DNA of 36,709 nt from Deltaproteobacteria bacterium (GTDB lineage: Bacteria; Desulfobacterota; WTBG01; CAIYCZ01; CAIRTM01). The stretch's first letter is position 1; the number at the start of each line of letters is the position of its first letter. Both the position numbers and the translations under genes were made by a program. Shown one piece after another: positions 6,921 through 35,412 of the stretch. Location of the stretch: positions 1-36,709 of the forward strand of contig JAJRXD010000160.1 of assembly GCA_024276465.1 (NCBI GenBank), read 5' to 3'. Under the pieces are notes generated by a model, which had not been told where the DNA came from, made no database searches, and saw only the letters and a program-made list of their open reading frames with translations.

Positions 6921-7154
6921 AACCGCAGAATGTCGAATCATGAAGTTTTTCTTTTCTTCGACATTCATAATTCCTTGTTCGTCATTCGTCATTGTTTTTT
7001 TATTTTCCCCTTCGTGTCCTTCGTGGTGAAAAATCTTTTTTTTAATAGCACCACGAAGCTCACGAAGTACACGAAGGTTGCTAACAGTAGAATGTCGAAT
7101 TACGAAGTTTTTTTTTATCACTTCGACATTCTGCGGTTCGTCATTCGTCATTCG
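6921..7154. repeat. Composite palindromic repeat: TGTCGAA arms around a CACGAAG inverted pair
   Basis: The block fills the gap 6833-7232. It starts with AACCGCAGAATGTCGAA (6921-6937) answered by TTCGACATTC (6957-6966). Then comes an inverted CACGAAG pair: CTTCGTG at 7010 and 7019, CACGAAG at 7052, 7061 and 7070, around a T-rich spacer. It ends with AGAATGTCGAA (7089-7099) answered by TTCGACATTCTGCGGTT (7122-7138) and GTCATTCGTCATTC. The same order of modules recurs at 13842-14061 and, shortened, at 35267-35412. Confidence 0.85.
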
Positions 7155-9989: not shown

Positions 9990-11414
9990 ATGGAACCAGA
10001 AAAAAAATTCAAGGTCTGCCTGATGGGAGCATCCATGGGAACCGGCAACAAAGGGGTCTCAGCGCTTGCATCTTCTCTTGTAAAACTGATAAAAAAAAAC
10101 AAACCTGGTGCGTTTGTATCATTTTTTACAGGCAACCGTATATCTGATCCACAGGAAGTGATGCTGGCTTCTGGCACTCTGAAAATTGATGTGGTTAACC
10201 ACAGGCTTTCCCCAAAAGCAAAACCATCAGAGCATCTTTTTCTGATATTTTTTCTTGCCTGCATTCACAGGCTGATCCCCCTGAAAGGTCTCAGAAAAAA
10301 AATAACTGATTCAAACAGATTTTTGGGACAGATGCATCAGTGTGATTTTGCAGGTGACATATTCGGAGGTGACAGCTTCAGTGACATATATGGTTTACAG
10401 AGGCTTCTGTTTTCTTCTCTGACCCCTGTTATTGCCCTGCTTCTTGGTAAAAAACTTGTGCTGTTTCCCCAGACTTACGGACCATATAAATCAACAGCCG
10501 GAAAATTTATTGCCACTTATATTATAAGCCACTCTTCAGCCATTTTTTCAAGAGACAGGGACAGCATTATAACGATAGAGGATTTAACAGGAGATAAATT
10601 TAAACAGCTTAATGTGCTGTTCTGCCCTGATGTTGCGTTCATGCTGGATTCAATAATGCCGCACAATCCTGATATACAGCCCCCTGTTGATATTACCGAT
10701 AAATCAGCCCACCCCCTTATCGGCTTTAACATAAACGGTCTCATGTATAACGGAGGATACACGCGCTCAAACATGTTCGGTCTGAAGATAGATTTCAGAA
10801 GCTTTGCAAAAAAGCTTCTGAAAACCCTGCTTGCAGAAACAGATGCGCGGATTCTTCTTGTTCCGCACACATTCGGCCCCCCCGGCAATATCAACAGCGA
10901 CCCTGATGCTTCAAGGGATGTTCTTAAATCATTGAATGAAGCTGAAAAAAACCGTGTCTGCATCATGAGCCGTGAATATAACCAGTCTGAAATAAAAGGC
11001 ATTATAGGAAACTGCGATTTTTTTATCGGGTCAAGGATGCACTCCTGCATAGCTGCTCTTTCCCAGTCAATACCCACTGTTGGAGTTGCATACAGCAAAA
11101 AGTTTATCGGGGTTTTTGATTCAATTGGCTCTGGCGACAGTGTTGTGGATGCCCGAAAGGAAAATGAAAACACAATAACAGAAAAGATTCTTGACTGCTA
11201 TAAAAACCGTGAACAGATCAGACCCATTATAAAAAAGCAGGTTGCTGAGGCACAGAAATTAATAATGGAAACGTTTAATAAATTATTAAAAAATAAAATT
11301 ATTCACCACGAAGAGCACGAAGGAAAAAAAGAAAAAGCATTAACCACGAAGGACACGAAGGAAGAAGAAAAGAAAAATCTAACCACGAAGAGCACGAAGA
11401 AAAATGGAATTTGA
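9990..11414 (+). CDS. Polysaccharide pyruvyl transferase family protein with repeat-encoded tail
   Basis: Family members (CsaB/WcaK/EpsI type) transfer pyruvate from phosphoenolpyruvate to a sugar as a ketal, adding negative charge to the polymer. The core is residues 1-435. It shows VCLMGASMGTGNKGVSAL at the N-terminus, DIFGGDSFSDIYG near 120, LFPQTYGPYKST near 160, and the C-terminal signature SRMHSCIAALSQSIPTVG near 345. The last 35-40 residues (IIHHEEHEGKKEK..., LTTKDTKEEEKKN, LTTKSTKKNGI) are a translation of three CACGAAG repeat arrays. The original stop codon seems to have been displaced by repeat insertion. The frame ends inside the first codons of the next gene (11-base overlap). The FrhB-like gene downstream is a frequent neighbour of pyruvyl transferases. 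Confidence 0.9.
   Translation: MEPEKKFKVCLMGASMGTGNKGVSALASSLVKLIKKNKPGAFVSFFTGNRISDPQEVMLASGTLKIDVVNHRLSPKAKPSEHLFLIFFLACIHRLIPLKGLRKKITDSNRFLGQMHQCDFAGDIFGGDSFSDIYGLQRLLFSSLTPVIALLLGKKLVLFPQTYGPYKSTAGKFIATYIISHSSAIFSRDRDSIITIEDLTGDKFKQLNVLFCPDVAFMLDSIMPHNPDIQPPVDITDKSAHPLIGFNINGLMYNGGYTRSNMFGLKIDFRSFAKKLLKTLLAETDARILLVPHTFGPPGNINSDPDASRDVLKSLNEAEKNRVCIMSREYNQSEIKGIIGNCDFFIGSRMHSCIAALSQSIPTVGVAYSKKFIGVFDSIGSGDSVVDARKENENTITEKILDCYKNREQIRPIIKKQVAEAQKLIMETFNKLLKNKIIHHEEHEGKKEKALTTKDTKEEEKKNLTTKSTKKNGI
11304..11399. repeat. CACGAAG arrays, left end of the GxxExxY unit
   Basis: Three short arrays of the 9-base unit CACGAAGNN lie at 11304-11322, 11343-11361 and 11381-11399, separated by A/G-rich spacers. 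They are translated as the tail of the pyruvyl transferase. The last array ends four bases before the ATG of the GxxExxY gene. They are inverted relative to the array at 11789-11804. Confidence 0.9.
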
Positions 11415-11775
11415 TGATTTGTCAAACAGAGTTATCGGCTGTGCAATTGAAGTTCATAGACATCCTGGTCCTGGTTTGCTTGAATCCACTTATGAAAACT
11501 GCCTTGCCTATGAACTGAATTTAAAAGCAGTTAAATTCAAAAGGCAACATCCCCTTCCAGTATTCTATAAAGATATACAACTGGATTGTGGATATCGGAT
11601 TGACTTGCTGGTCGAGAATGATCTGATCGTAGAACTGAAAAGCGTGGAAGAACTCAAGGCAATCCATGAAGCACAACTATTGACTTACATGAAATTGTCA
11701 TGCATAAAAAAAGGTCTCTTATTGAATTTCAATGTTAAGAAATTAAAAGATGGAATCAGGAGGTTTGTTTTATAA
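11404..11775 (+). CDS. GxxExxY protein (PD-(D/E)XK nuclease-like)
   Basis: The 123-residue protein belongs to the GxxExxY family (TIGR04256 / PDDEXK_3). The name motif is at residues 24-30 (G-L-L-E-S-T-Y). A PD-(D/E)XK-like core is visible: Asp67 in YRIDLLV, then Glu77-Leu-Lys79 in LIVELKS, followed by HEAQLLTYM. This fold is typical of DNA nucleases, but activity has not been established for the family as far as I know. The ATG directly follows a CACGAAG array and has no independent Shine-Dalgarno except AAGAA in the repeat. An inverted array follows 13 bases after the stop. The gene interrupts the otherwise contiguous pyruvyl transferase-FrhB pair. Its N-terminus is nearly identical to the truncated copy at 17008-17196. 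Confidence 0.9.
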   Translation: MEFDDLSNRVIGCAIEVHRHPGPGLLESTYENCLAYELNLKAVKFKRQHPLPVFYKDIQLDCGYRIDLLVENDLIVELKSVEELKAIHEAQLLTYMKLSCIKKGLLLNFNVKKLKDGIRRFVL

Positions 11776-11788
11776 TTATCTTCCTTTT

Positions 11789-11804
11789 CTTCGTGCCCTT
11801 CGTG
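11789..11804. repeat. Inverted CTTCGTG array, right end of the GxxExxY unit
   Basis: CTTCGTG at 11789-11795 and 11798-11804 form the reverse complement of the arrays at 11304-11399. They close the unit about 14 bases after the GxxExxY stop codon. They also supply the GTG at 11793 that would extend the FrhB-like frame by 14 codons. Confidence 0.9.
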
Positions 11805-13841: not shown

Positions 13842-14061
13842 GAACCGCAGAATATCGAGCACTAAAATGTCGAATCAGGAAGTTTTTTTATCACTTCAAC
13901 ATTCGTAATTCCTTGTTCCTTTCCTTCGTGAACTTCGTGTCCTTCGTGGTGATATTAAAAAAAGAATATTCACCACGAAGCTCACGAAGGGTGCTAACAG
14001 CTGAATATCGAACAATAGAATATCGAATTATGAATTTTTTTCACTTCGACATTCTGCGGTT
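13842..14061. repeat. Composite palindromic repeat, second copy
   Basis: The module order is the same as at 6921-7154. It begins AACCGCAGAATATCGAG and AAAATGTCGAA, with CACTTCAACATTCGTAATTCC in place of the answering arm. Then comes an inverted CACGAAG pair (CTTCGTG at 13924, 13933 and 13942; CACGAAG at 13974 and 13983) and finally AATATCGAA arms with TTCGACATTCTGCGGTT at 14045-14061. It fills the gap between the acetyltransferase and the Asp-box protein. Confidence 0.8.
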
Positions 14062-16531: not shown

Positions 16532-16735
16532 CTATCTTTGTTGCGTTGTTACAGGTTTGACACAACAGTAGCCTGTCCTGATTTACCGGGACAATGCCAG
16601 GCAGTGCATGTTTTTCATATTACCACGAAGAGCACGAAGAACACGAAGAAAAAGAATATTAACCGCAGACTTAACATGTCGAAGATCCTCATTGGATATC
16701 TGGACAATGCCAGGCAGTGCATGTTTTTCATATTA

Positions 16736-17015
16736 CCATCCCGACAGACGTGGATAAACTCCGAGCACGAAGAAAAAGAATATTAACCGCAGACACATCC
16801 AGGAAAATTAATTATTACAAATATCCGTCGAAGATCCTCGTAAAGACAGGGATGAACGCAGGTTTTTTTATATTACCATCCCGACAGACGTGGATAAACT
16901 CCGAGCACGAAGAAAAAGAATATTAACCGCAGACACACGCAGAAAAATTAATTATTACAAATATCCGTCGAATATCCTCGTAAAGACAGGGATGAACGCA
17001 GGTTTTTTTATATTA
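16736..17015. repeat. 140-bp tandem duplication plus shared fragments
   Basis: Two adjacent 140-base copies begin at CCATCCCGACAGACGTGG (16736 and 16876). Both run through GAGCACGAAGAAAAAGAATA, TTAACCGCAGACACA, AATTAATTATTACAAATATC and GATGAACGCAGGTTTTTTTA, with only scattered differences. A shorter duplicated stretch, ACAATGCCAGGCAGTGCATG, occurs just upstream (16591 and 16705). Parts recur in inverted orientation near 20955 and 23757. The gap 16357-17007 holds no gene. Confidence 0.88.
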
Positions 17016-17196
17016 CAAGAACACGAAGAGCACGAAGGGTTATAAAAGGATGCTGTAATTTGAATTTAATTGCTTTTAAAGAGAGTTCATGGGCGAGACA
17101 TTGCTCGTAAGTTGATTCAAGCAAACCCGGCCCAAGATGCCTGTGGACTTCAATTGCACAGCCAATAACTCTGTTTGATAAATCATCAAATTCCAT
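17008..17196 (-). pseudogene. Internally deleted GxxExxY gene
   Basis: Residues 1-51 (MEFDDLSNRVIGCAIEVHRH..., with the motif G-L-L-E-S-T-Y at 24-30) are nearly identical to the intact copy at 11404-11775. After KLQHPF the frame passes directly into translated CACGAAG repeat (ITLRALRVLVI). The deletion removes the whole nuclease-like core (Asp67, Glu77, Lys79). Both flanking inverted arrays remain: CTTCGTG x3 before the start (17202-17226) and CACGAAG x2 after the break (17022-17037). It is therefore a deletion derivative with intact ends. Confidence 0.85.
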
Positions 17197-17201
17197 TTTT
17201 T

Positions 17202-17226
17202 CTTCGTGCTCTTCGTGAGCTTCGTG
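17202..17226. repeat. CTTCGTG array bordering the deleted GxxExxY copy
   Basis: Three CTTCGTG units at 17202, 17211 and 17220 lie six bases upstream of the GxxExxY start on the minus strand. The opposite array is at 17022-17037. Beyond it, a third copy of CCATCCCGACAGACGTGG starts near 17251, joined to GAGCACGAAGAAAAAACG. From there to 17409 there is only the leader of the next gene. Confidence 0.88.
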
Positions 17227-17409
17227 GTGAAAAATCTTTTTTTAATACTACCATCCCGACAGACGTGGATAAACTCCGAGCACGAAGAAAAAACGTTGAG
17301 ATTACCACCCCCCTGATCCCTTTTTCTTTTATTTTTTTGTAATTATTTTTGTGTTTCATTCGAAAAGATACTACAATTAAGTCAATTTTCAAAGAGGTGA
17401 TATTAATAT

Positions 17410-18377: not shown

Positions 18378-18585
18378 CATGAAGGCACGAAGGACACGAA
18401 GGAAAAAAGACAGGGGCAAAGGCACAAGGGCACAAAGCATGCAGGTTGTGGTTGATGAAAAGCAGGGCTGTCATTTCGAACGAATGTGAGAAATCTTCAT
18501 TTCCTTCGTGCTCTTCGTGTTCTTCGTGGTGGAAAGAAAAAAAGAATTGAACCATGAAGTCACGAAGAGCACGAAGGAGGAAAGA
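18378..18585. repeat. CACGAAG arrays and inverted pair before the flippase gene
   Basis: A forward array (GGCACGAAGGACACGAAGG, about 18383-18402) is followed by CAAAGGCACAAGGGCACAAAG. Next is the dispersed phrase GTCATTTCGAACGAATGTGAG (about 18470-18490), which has a relative near 23450. Then comes an inverted pair: CTTCGTG at 18504-18528 and CACGAAG at 18561-18576. Its last bases, GAAGGAGGAAAG, form the apparent ribosome-binding site of the flippase. The stretch AAAGAAAAAAAGAATTGAAC occurs twice (about 18357 and 18534). Confidence 0.85.
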
Positions 18586-21881: not shown

Positions 21882-22097
21882 CACATTCTCCTTTTTGATA
21901 AGCTATGCAATAAGGCTAAGTAATTTCTAATTGAATGTCAAGAGACAAATGGGCAGGAGCTTCCCCCTGAATTGCAGGACAGATTGAAAGTCTGTAATCC
22001 TGAGTGATTGCAGGATGGCAGCAAACAGGTACTTTTCTTTGCCTGCTCCAAAGAAAATCCCGATGAATATCGGGACAGGCTATGGCAATCTCATCTG

Positions 22098-22260
22098 TTT
22101 TTCTTCGTGCTCGGAGTTTATCCACGTCTGTCGGGATGGTAGTATTAAAAAAAGATTTTTCACCACGAAGCTCACGAAGAGCACGAAGAGTAAAAAGCCT
22201 GACCCATTTGTCATTCCCGCGTGCTTTTAGCGGGAATCCAGTAGTGCTGGTGGTAGATAA
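22098..22260. repeat. Mixed CACGAAG palindrome and the first copy of a 91-bp repeat
   Basis: The left arm (TTTTTCTTCGTGCTCGGAG, TTATCCACGTCTGTCGGGAT) and a right arm with CACGAAG at 22166, 22175 and 22184 flank GTAGTATTAAAAAAAGATT. The 91-base repeat 22170-22260 (TAAAAAGCCTGACCCATTTG, ATTCCCGC...GCGGGAAT hairpin, CAGTAGTGCTGGTGGTAGAT) recurs directly at 23987-24077. A CCCGATGAATATCGGG palindrome is at 22058-22073. The rest of the gap 21885-22320 shows no gene. Confidence 0.82.
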
Positions 22261-22541: not shown

Positions 22542-22934
22542 ATGAATATCAAAGAACATGTTCAACATTGGCTTGATGGAGCAGACCATGATTGGGATAC
22601 AGCATGTAGTTTGTTTTTATCAGAAAAATATGACTGGTGCTTATTTCTTGGACATTTGGTTCTGGAAAAGACATTGAAAGCACTTTATATACAAGATAAT
22701 AACAATCAACTGCCGCCAAAAACGCATAACCTTATTAAATTAGTAAGACATACAAACCTGACTCTGACTGAAGATCAAGAAAATTTTCTGGATGAAGTGT
22801 CTGATTTTAATCAGGAAGCAAGGTATCCCCAATATAAATATGAATTCTATAAGAAATGCGATAAAGAGTTTACCGAACATTATTACCACAAAATTGAAGA
22901 GATGAAGATATGGCTAAAATCCCAGATAAAGTAA
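22542..22934 (+). CDS. HEPN-domain protein (toxin-like partner of an MNT pair)
   Basis: The 130-residue helical protein matches the HEPN family: WLDGADHDWDTACSLF, DWCLFLGHLVLEKTLKALYI, LPPKTHNLIKLVRHTNL and FNQEARYPQYKYEFYKKCD. HEPN proteins paired with minimal nucleotidyltransferases are RNase-type toxins or their relatives. I do not see a clear RX4-6H catalytic motif, so this one may lack RNase activity. The start of the nucleotidyltransferase gene lies 25 bases inside its 3' end. The pair sits between two direct 91-bp repeats. Confidence 0.88.
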   Translation: MNIKEHVQHWLDGADHDWDTACSLFLSEKYDWCLFLGHLVLEKTLKALYIQDNNNQLPPKTHNLIKLVRHTNLTLTEDQENFLDEVSDFNQEARYPQYKYEFYKKCDKEFTEHYYHKIEEMKIWLKSQIK

Positions 22935-23227
22935 TAAAAACAATAGATCAATTCTTGAAAAAATTGACTGAAAATAAAATCATTATCGAAAAAGCTGTTC
23001 TATTTGGAAGTTACGCTCAAGGTACATATACAGAATGGAGTGATATAGATATCGCAATCGTATCTAAATCATTTGAAGGCGAACGCTTTATTGACAGGGG
23101 TAAAATCAGACGCATTAAACTTATGGTTAGTTGTGACCTTGAGCCTGTACCCTACACTCCAGAAGATTTTAATATTGAAAATCCTTTTGTAAAAAAAATC
23201 CTTGAAACAGGTATCCGGGTTGCTTGA
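22910..23227 (+). CDS. MNT-domain nucleotidyltransferase (antitoxin-like)
   Basis: The 105-residue protein has the minimal nucleotidyltransferase signature GSYAQGTYTEWSDIDIAIVS (residues 36-55). This is GSx10DxD, with both metal-binding Asp residues, followed by a short helical tail ending in VKKILETGIRVA. In HEPN-MNT toxin-antitoxin pairs the MNT protein neutralises HEPN, in studied cases by adding AMP to it. The 25-base overlap with the HEPN gene implies coupled translation. About 1.1 kb without genes follows, filled mostly with dispersed repeats (23450-24077). Confidence 0.9.
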   Translation: MAKIPDKVIKTIDQFLKKLTENKIIIEKAVLFGSYAQGTYTEWSDIDIAIVSKSFEGERFIDRGKIRRIKLMVSCDLEPVPYTPEDFNIENPFVKKILETGIRVA

Positions 23228-32997: not shown

Positions 32998-33387
32998 TCA
33001 CGGACAAAGATGCTTCTCTGACAATTCCAACACCATTCGCTTTATATCAGCCTTTTGATGCTTAAAATTCACCAACAATCCAACCTGTATACCGGTTGCT
33101 TTTAAATAGTTCAACAACTGTGCCTCGTGAGTTCTGTCAAGCCTTTCAACTGTTTTCAGCTCAACAATAACCTTTTTTTCAACCAGTAAATCCGCGACAT
33201 ATTCACCAACCATGCTTCCTTTATAACTGACTTTAACTGGAACCTGACTTTCAGCTTTTATTCCTCGACGTTTCAGTTCAACTAATAGCGCATTTTCATA
33301 AACCTTTTCAAGGAACCCAGGCCCAAGCTCTCTCTGTACTTCAAAGACAGCTCCATTTATCTCGTACGTAATATCATTAATTTCCAT
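32998..33387 (-). CDS. GxxExxY protein (PD-(D/E)XK nuclease-like), second intact copy
   Basis: The 129-residue protein has the name motif at 24-30 (G-F-L-E-K-V-Y) and the nuclease-like core Asp66 in YVADLLV, Glu76-Leu-Lys78 in VIVELKT, then HEAQLLNYL. It differs clearly from the 11404 copy (for example ELKRRGIKAESQVPVKVSYK), so it is a different lineage and not a recent duplicate. Its C-terminus matches the remnant at 5298-5340. The last residues (SEKHLCP) may be encoded by flanking sequence. Perfect CACGAAG arrays are not adjacent; instead the gene is framed by the 32845 repeat and the 151-bp tandem repeats. Role unknown. Confidence 0.9.
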   Translation of the reverse strand: MEINDITYEINGAVFEVQRELGPGFLEKVYENALLVELKRRGIKAESQVPVKVSYKGSMVGEYVADLLVEKKVIVELKTVERLDRTHEAQLLNYLKATGIQVGLLVNFKHQKADIKRMVLELSEKHLCP

Positions 33388-33425
33388 AACTGTTTTTTAT
33401 CCCGATATTCATCGGGATTGATTCT

Positions 33426-33830
33426 CATGACAGGACAGGTCGTCCTGTTATGATGTCTGCGTCAGTCTGCGTGCGTCTGCGGTTCCAAAAGAGTTTCTGT
33501 TTTTAAACATGAGATTGCCACAGCCTTCGGCTTCGCAATGACAGATTGTGTCCTGTTATTCATCGAAATTGCTCCTCATGACAGGACAGGTCGTCCTGTT
33601 ATGATGTCTGCGTCAGTCTGCGTGCGTCTGCGGTTCCAAAAGAGTTTCTGTTTTTAAACATGAGATTGCCACAGCCTTCGGCTTTACAATAACAGATTGT
33701 GCCCTGTTATTCATCGAAATTGCTCCTCATGACAGGACAGGTCGTCCTGTTATGATGTCTGCGTCAGTCTGTCCCGTTATACAACGAGGATCTTCGACGG
33801 TTCCAAAAGAGTTTCTGTTTTTAAACATGA
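33426..33830. repeat. Three tandem copies of a 151-bp unit
   Basis: Copies start at CATGACAGGACAGGTCGTCC at 33426, 33577 and 33728, exactly 151 bases apart. Each contains the palindrome AGGACAGGTCGTCCTGT, ATGATGTCTGCGTCAGTCTG, TTCCAAAAGAGTTTCTGTTT and CATGAGATTGCC. The third copy has its middle replaced by TCCCGTTATACAACGAGGAT and CTTCGACGG, a piece of the 140-bp family, and stops before the second half. Near-identity of copies 1 and 2 suggests recent duplication. No gene is seen in 33388-33850. Confidence 0.92.
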
Positions 33831-35266: not shown

Positions 35267-35412
35267 TCCTTCGTGCTCTTCGTGGTGAAAATTCTTTTTT
35301 TAATACTACCACGAAGCACACGAAGTACACGAAGGTTGCTAACAGCAGAATATCGAATTACGAAGTTTTTTTTATCACATCGACATTCATAATTCCCTGT
35401 TCGTCATTCGTT
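35267..35412. repeat. Composite palindromic repeat, third (shortened) copy
   Basis: An inverted CACGAAG pair (CTTCGTG at 35269 and 35278; CACGAAG at 35310, 35319 and 35328) brackets GGTGAAAATTCTTTTTTTAA. It is followed by AACAGCAGAATATCGAATTA, CGAAG, TCGACATTCATAATTCCCTG and GTCATTCG. Compared with 6921-7154, the left TGTCGAA module is missing. Confidence 0.85.

Follow-up and report, generated by a model that had tools for sequence, protein, structure and literature searches.

A truncated GxxExxY gene for a predicted nuclease that has lost its interior and kept both inverted repeat arrays in a deltaproteobacterial genome

The window, that is, the whole stretch of DNA analysed here, is a 36,709-bp contig (C136) of a deltaproteobacterial genome assembly (G000; 4.1 Mb, 181 contigs). 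It contains a short copy of a GxxExxY gene, which reads on the minus strand from 17226 to 17008 as an array (CACGAAGCTCACGAAGAGCACGAAG), an ATG at 17196, about 50 GxxExxY codons, an abrupt junction and an inverted array (reading CTTCGTGCTCTTCGTG). After the 50 or so codons, the copy skips directly to the 3' end of the gene (TTTTATAACCCTTCGTG), and its stop codon ends at 17008 (Table 1). The search against PF13366 gave 49 bits (cut-off 22) and covered only model positions 2-48 of 117. The nuclease core is incomplete, as the deletion takes out D67, E77xK79 and Q91xxxY95. A scan for repeats around the copy revealed inverted pairs running from array to array only, and no target duplication was seen around it; it is embedded in nested repeats without clear outer borders. 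The earlier note had described this locus as an internal-deletion derivative of the GxxExxY unit that lacks the nuclease core and still has CTTCGTG and CACGAAG arrays on its two sides, and the alignments bear this description out: compared with the full copy of contig C124, about 215 bp are lost, most of the catalytic core among them, and an array stands at each side. These results show that the window copy arose from an array-bounded nuclease cassette by internal deletion and is dead; its anatomy and ancestry are firm. Two 140-bp tandem units (96% identical) adjoin the copy at 16724-17016, where array words link different modules, as if the arrays were recombination joints.

Table 1. Features of the truncated GxxExxY copy and related elements in the window.
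Feature	Position	Strand	Remarks
Truncated GxxExxY ORF, 62 aa	17008..17196	-	About 50 N-terminal codons plus a frame-shifted tail through the array; from translation and PF13366
Deletion junction CAGCATCC/TTTTATAACCC	17043..17051	-	About 215 bp missing relative to C124; from alignments; unique in the genome
5'-side array, three repeats of CACGAAGNN in gene orientation	17202..17226	-	
3'-side inverted array, two exact repeats	17022..17037	+	Degenerate third repeat at 17013-17021
AT-rich flank adjoining the 5' array (GGTAGTATTAAAAAAAGATTTTTCAC)	17227..17253	-	Common to C124 and C70
Outer module	17254..17307	-	Common to the C70 derivative and the gene-less site 22083-22196; absent from C124
Full-length GxxExxY unit, 85% identical relative	11384..11804	+	Array 11384-11399, gene 11404-11775, inverted array 11789-11804
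Gene-less site with outer module and array (22164-22188)	22083..22196	+	94.7% over 112 bp
GxxExxY gene of another clade	32998..33387	-	Same window

The closest relative of the window copy was the full copy at G000:C124:33431-33802, to which it was identical at 148 of 150 nt and 50 of 50 codons; with E = 2.8e-83, this resemblance is not due to chance. The gene at 11404 shared only 125 of 150 nt and 44 of 50 codons, so that the earlier statement that the two match almost exactly was too strong, and the 11404 gene was dropped as a parent. Judged by these identities, the parent type is the C124 copy. Relative to it, the window junction has a 1-nt exact overlap, and, owing to mismatches, the break can be placed only to within about 4 nt. 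The only other two-ended derivative in this genome (C70:483-697) has lost 212 bp with different break points, and its junction shows a 3-nt exact overlap, AAG, inside the imperfect direct repeat AAG[C/A]AATTAAA. The short overlaps at both junctions fit interrupted copying or end-joining. The earlier note had proposed looking for more copies with the window junction; a search of the genome found none, and the C70 junction was likewise single, so that each derivative is present as a single copy here, as opposed to the several dispersed copies of one derivative that characterise a MITE. Because the two derivatives share an outer module that C124 lacks, and that is also found at the gene-less site, they may go back to a single earlier unit, even with different deletions.

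The full GxxExxY copies in the window and on C124 were clear members of the family (148-156 bits). The AlphaFold2 model of the 11404 protein had a mean pLDDT of 95.5, and its best Foldseek matches in the PDB included lambda exonuclease, Cas4 SSO0001, the AddAB nuclease and RecE (E 2.4e-3 to 7e-2; TM-score by query length 0.44-0.52). No relatives with a solved structure were found by sequence. Invariant residues included G22, E27, Y30, D67, E77, K79, Q91 and Y95, a pattern that we take to be that of RecB/Cas4-type PD-(D/E)XK nucleases. The full proteins are thus predicted, from the modelled fold, to be nucleases resembling lambda exonuclease, Cas4 and RecB.

GTDB genomes were then searched with the C124 protein, and the best 80 loci (66-80% identity) were kept. 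Their hosts belonged to Planctomycetota, Verrucomicrobiota, Lentisphaerota, deltaproteobacterial groups, Pseudomonadota and others; most of the genomes are metagenome bins, and as the loci were picked by similarity, the prevalences are not unbiased. At 58 of the 80 loci, the 150 nt upstream of the gene contained CACGAAG and the 150 nt downstream contained CTTCGTG; the upstream array often abutted the start codon, and the downstream array often lay just past the stop codon. When no word was specified, matched inverted arrays with an 8-10-bp period were detected in 114 of 139 gene copies, a set in which some loci had been fetched twice, compared with 0/139 for mononucleotide-shuffled flanks. Other array words were CATGAAG, CACAGAG, CGCAGAG, CACGGAA and CACGAAA. 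At the 45 non-CACGAAG loci, a locus's own two flanks matched in 31 cases compared with 290 of 1980 mismatched pairs, a background that includes some real same-word pairs; in direct orientation, only 13 of the 45 had matching flanks. Full GxxExxY genes therefore usually lie between inverted arrays of about 9-bp period, and the intact unit, its repeat word matched on both sides, was found in at least ten phyla. A stricter proposal, that the left and right arrays are exact inverted copies including the spacer bases, was abandoned after a weak match (15/32 versus 10.8 expected).

Triple arrays were present in 16 of 395 genomes of the phylum to which the window belongs, one of the 16 being the window genome (reversed-pattern control, 0). 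Nine of the 15 other array-bearing genomes carried a gene or fragment at least 63% identical to the C124 protein, and six lacked the clade gene, which was also absent from all 30 sampled array-free genomes (best identity 61%). The other members of the window's family that were sampled had no CACGAAG triple arrays. In relatives of the window genome, the GxxExxY genes were without CACGAAG arrays, which first seemed to oppose the association; matched arrays of other words, some of them weak, were later found at 15 of 26. Convergent arrays with 11-47-bp loops also exist and could be empty sites; no occupied/empty pair of one locus was found. Searches for carriage of the unit gave no phage match and eight remote plasmid matches. 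In the window genome, arrays were concentrated on C124 and C136, so this region may have been binned in or horizontally acquired; an acquired region or mis-binned contigs are both possible for the array contigs C124, C136 and C70.

To relate the array words to the protein, they were mapped on a FastTree phylogeny, in which many forks are weak as the protein is short. The three commonest words (71 loci) required 2 changes, the minimum for three states, compared with at least 11 in shuffles. Host phylum required 28 changes (shuffled mean 43.6), and the CATGAAG group alone covered six phyla. The word thus follows the protein tree and not the phylum, indicating that gene and arrays travel together, and there is good support for their horizontal spread as a unit. 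In the sequences compared, array words vary by clade and are inherited with the protein.

Besides the two derivatives in the window genome, one was found at locus L059, beside a full copy and cut near the same left position, 20 in Schlesneria sp. (G070) and seven in the uncultured bacterium bin.53 (G059). The Schlesneria derivatives, with array-bounded interiors of 74-130 bp, were spread over 14 contigs; they comprised several classes of junction, and some were tandem. Many of the dispersed copies were homologous up to a point about 35 bp beyond the 5' array on one side and up to, or nearly up to, the outer edge of the 3' array on the other. The seven derivatives of bin.53 were dispersed and shared one junction. 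In all of these, and at locus L073, the interior alone was lost and both arrays were kept, a pattern that searches requiring both arrays favour. A pattern search for convergent arrays 81-141 bp apart gave hits in 7 of 36 genomes, bin.53 included, and many of the interiors were not derived from GxxExxY. A second repeat, AAAGGCCCGTTAACCACC...GGTGGGGTTTCGTT, stood inverted on both sides of some Schlesneria derivatives (L317, L318, L326, L331), possibly as a further outer terminal repeat. In a member of the Lentisphaeria (G086; contigs C5, C50, C96, C102, C121 and C184; loci L253 and L260), units bounded by arrays had a hairpin-rich interior that did not resemble GxxExxY remnants.

Alignment of the flanks in bin.53 revealed imperfect outer inverted repeats (GGYTCYTTGTCRTTYCGAGTGGGTA) that lie 50-110 bp beyond the arrays, on the derivatives as well as on two full units. 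Flanking duplications of 8 bp were present at L265 (8/8), L278 (7/8), L273 (7/8) and L277 (6/8), and absent at L264; they were read by eye with a shift of up to 1 bp. This was the only genome in which target duplications were found. It gave nine matches to the ISL3 transposase (PF01610), one of which is bordered by repeats of similar sequence (left 19/25, right 18-19/25; at 18 or more, a random megabase yielded a single match). An ISL3 element with 8-bp duplications has been described (PMC12554700), and no match was found in published papers for one with a GGCTCTTTG end. The outer ISL3-like repeats, the 8-bp duplications and the resident transposases together indicate that the array ends in bin.53 are not MITE ends, and its derivatives are best understood as non-autonomous elements of the ISL3 type that have the arrays in their interior. 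On these grounds, the simple view of the arrays as transposon ends was dropped. In the window genome, PF01610 had no match, and the combination of ISL3-like outer repeats with a resident ISL3 transposase seen in bin.53 was not found.

The best reading of these data is a horizontally spread, array-bounded nuclease cassette whose interior has been lost repeatedly and independently. We infer that the arrays are the targets of the nuclease, that the cassette is copied in a homing-like manner and that interrupted copying is the source of the deletions. Under this proposal, the arrays would be cognate sites of the GxxExxY nuclease, which would cut there; repair or recombination between arrays would copy the cassette; and interrupted copying or end-joining would repeatedly drop the interior while the ends are kept. 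Dead copies could then multiply through any system that moves the surrounding DNA, in bin.53 probably a transposase of the ISL3 type; in the window genome, nothing is visible in this role. To the full account, a dead derivative together with array cutting, homing-like copying and deletion by interrupted copying, we give a probability of about 0.5. More tentatively, GxxExxY and its inverted arrays of about 9-bp period may form an undescribed minimal mobile unit (about 430 bp, one gene), in which a RecB/Cas4-like nuclease would read its own heptamer array, with a word that changes between clades, and which would cross phyla and spawn end-retaining deletion derivatives, the window copy among them, that can become MITE-like families.

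The earlier note had compared the copy with the way in which MITEs arise from autonomous elements. In a true MITE of this sense, the arrays would be terminal inverted repeats, GxxExxY the mobility protein, and the derivative movable in trans. The internal deletion and the retained ends stood, and a word that tracks the protein clade and, in Schlesneria, families whose homology stops close to the arrays speak for this reading; the local copy number speaks against it, with one copy per junction in the window genome. No target duplication was seen at the arrays, and in bin.53 the array ends did not stand as mobile ends, since duplications and termini lie outside the arrays. We consider a true MITE unlikely. 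It is similarly doubtful that the gene and arrays are a passenger, either cargo or a nested landing site in IS-derived elements that move and make the deletions. The outer repeats, the transposases with similar ends and the 8-bp duplications of bin.53, of the kind that ISL3 elements make (PMC12554700), fit such a passenger, but the outer sequences differ from genome to genome around a constant array-gene-array core, no ISL3 transposase was matched in the window genome, and cargo need not carry a repeat word that tracks its protein. Passive decay would have a duplicated unit lose its middle by replication slippage or chance end-joining, with the arrays kept incidentally. The earlier note would have accepted this if break points were random in many copies and array ends were not conserved; the two local break points do differ, neither derivative has multiplied here, and the overlaps of 3 nt, within an imperfect direct repeat, and 1 nt suit such a process, yet the derivatives of the window genome, L059, L073, Schlesneria and bin.53 all lose the interior and keep both arrays. 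That argument is limited because the searches themselves favour retained ends, and two local derivatives are too few, so that ordinary decay keeps a small chance; we regard it as quite improbable compared with the nuclease cassette.

The GxxExxY family (TIGR04256/PF13366, PDDEXK_3), to which the full window and C124 copies belong and of which the window copy is a truncated member, is annotated as a protein only. No description of the inverted arrays, clade-matched words or derivatives was found in open-access papers, and a literature search on GxxExxY or the repeat words returned nothing relevant. In REP/RAYT systems, one small gene is bordered by inverted short repeats, and many solo repeats are present in the genome. 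RAYTs differ in being HUH/Y1 enzymes, whereas the gene here is PDDEXK_3 by Pfam and by its predicted fold, closest to lambda exonuclease, Cas4 and RecB, and the repeats are arrays of about 9-bp period and not single palindromes. Free-standing homing endonuclease genes are alike in being lone small nuclease genes at a presumed target in distant hosts, and a nuclease fold is predicted here too, although that of GxxExxY is nearest to lambda exonuclease, Cas4 and RecB. MITEs and non-autonomous IS derivatives such as MITEAba12 (PMC6382973) are likewise short, broken or non-coding, derived from a longer unit and flanked by retained inverted ends; here, however, the longer unit codes for a predicted PD-(D/E)XK nuclease instead of a transposase, and the derivatives are multi-copy in Schlesneria and bin.53 but not in the window genome. 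The likeness to ISL3-type non-autonomous elements is confined to bin.53, where the outer imperfect inverted repeats resemble those of the resident ISL3 element.

If the arrays are what the nuclease recognises, a single family of small proteins would account for a large class of short repeats (CACGAAG, CATGAAG, CACAGAG and others) that are dispersed in the genomes of planctomycetes, verrucomicrobia, deltaproteobacteria and other bacteria, and clades with different words would be a ready-made specificity code to test. The end-retaining derivatives show what the unit can lose, and they are a record of its past activity. The recurrence of the gene-plus-repeats unit across phyla, together with multiplied gutted copies, points to a little-described kind of mobile DNA.

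Several further repeats were observed in the window genome. Divergent double arrays, laid out as CTTCGTG repeats, an AT-rich spacer of about 20-35 bp and CACGAAG repeats, recur without a gene at window positions 7010-7076, 13924-13989, 18504-18576 and 35269-35334, and the C124 cassette is arranged in this way at its left edge. At G000:C124:35285-38238 (within L029), a larger repeated unit with a CCCGATTTATCGGG hairpin contains solo triple arrays that share one orientation; several form runs with a spacing of about 98-104 bp. The GxxExxY gene of the other clade adjoins a 151-bp tandem repeat (33406-33771) with periodic words of the CGCAGAC type, as though the second GxxExxY clade in the window had a second word of its own. 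A few hundred bases past the solo array of the gene-less site, at 22542-23227, a HEPN-like ORF is followed by an MNT-type nucleotidyltransferase ORF (MntA-like, below cut-off), likely a toxin-antitoxin pair.
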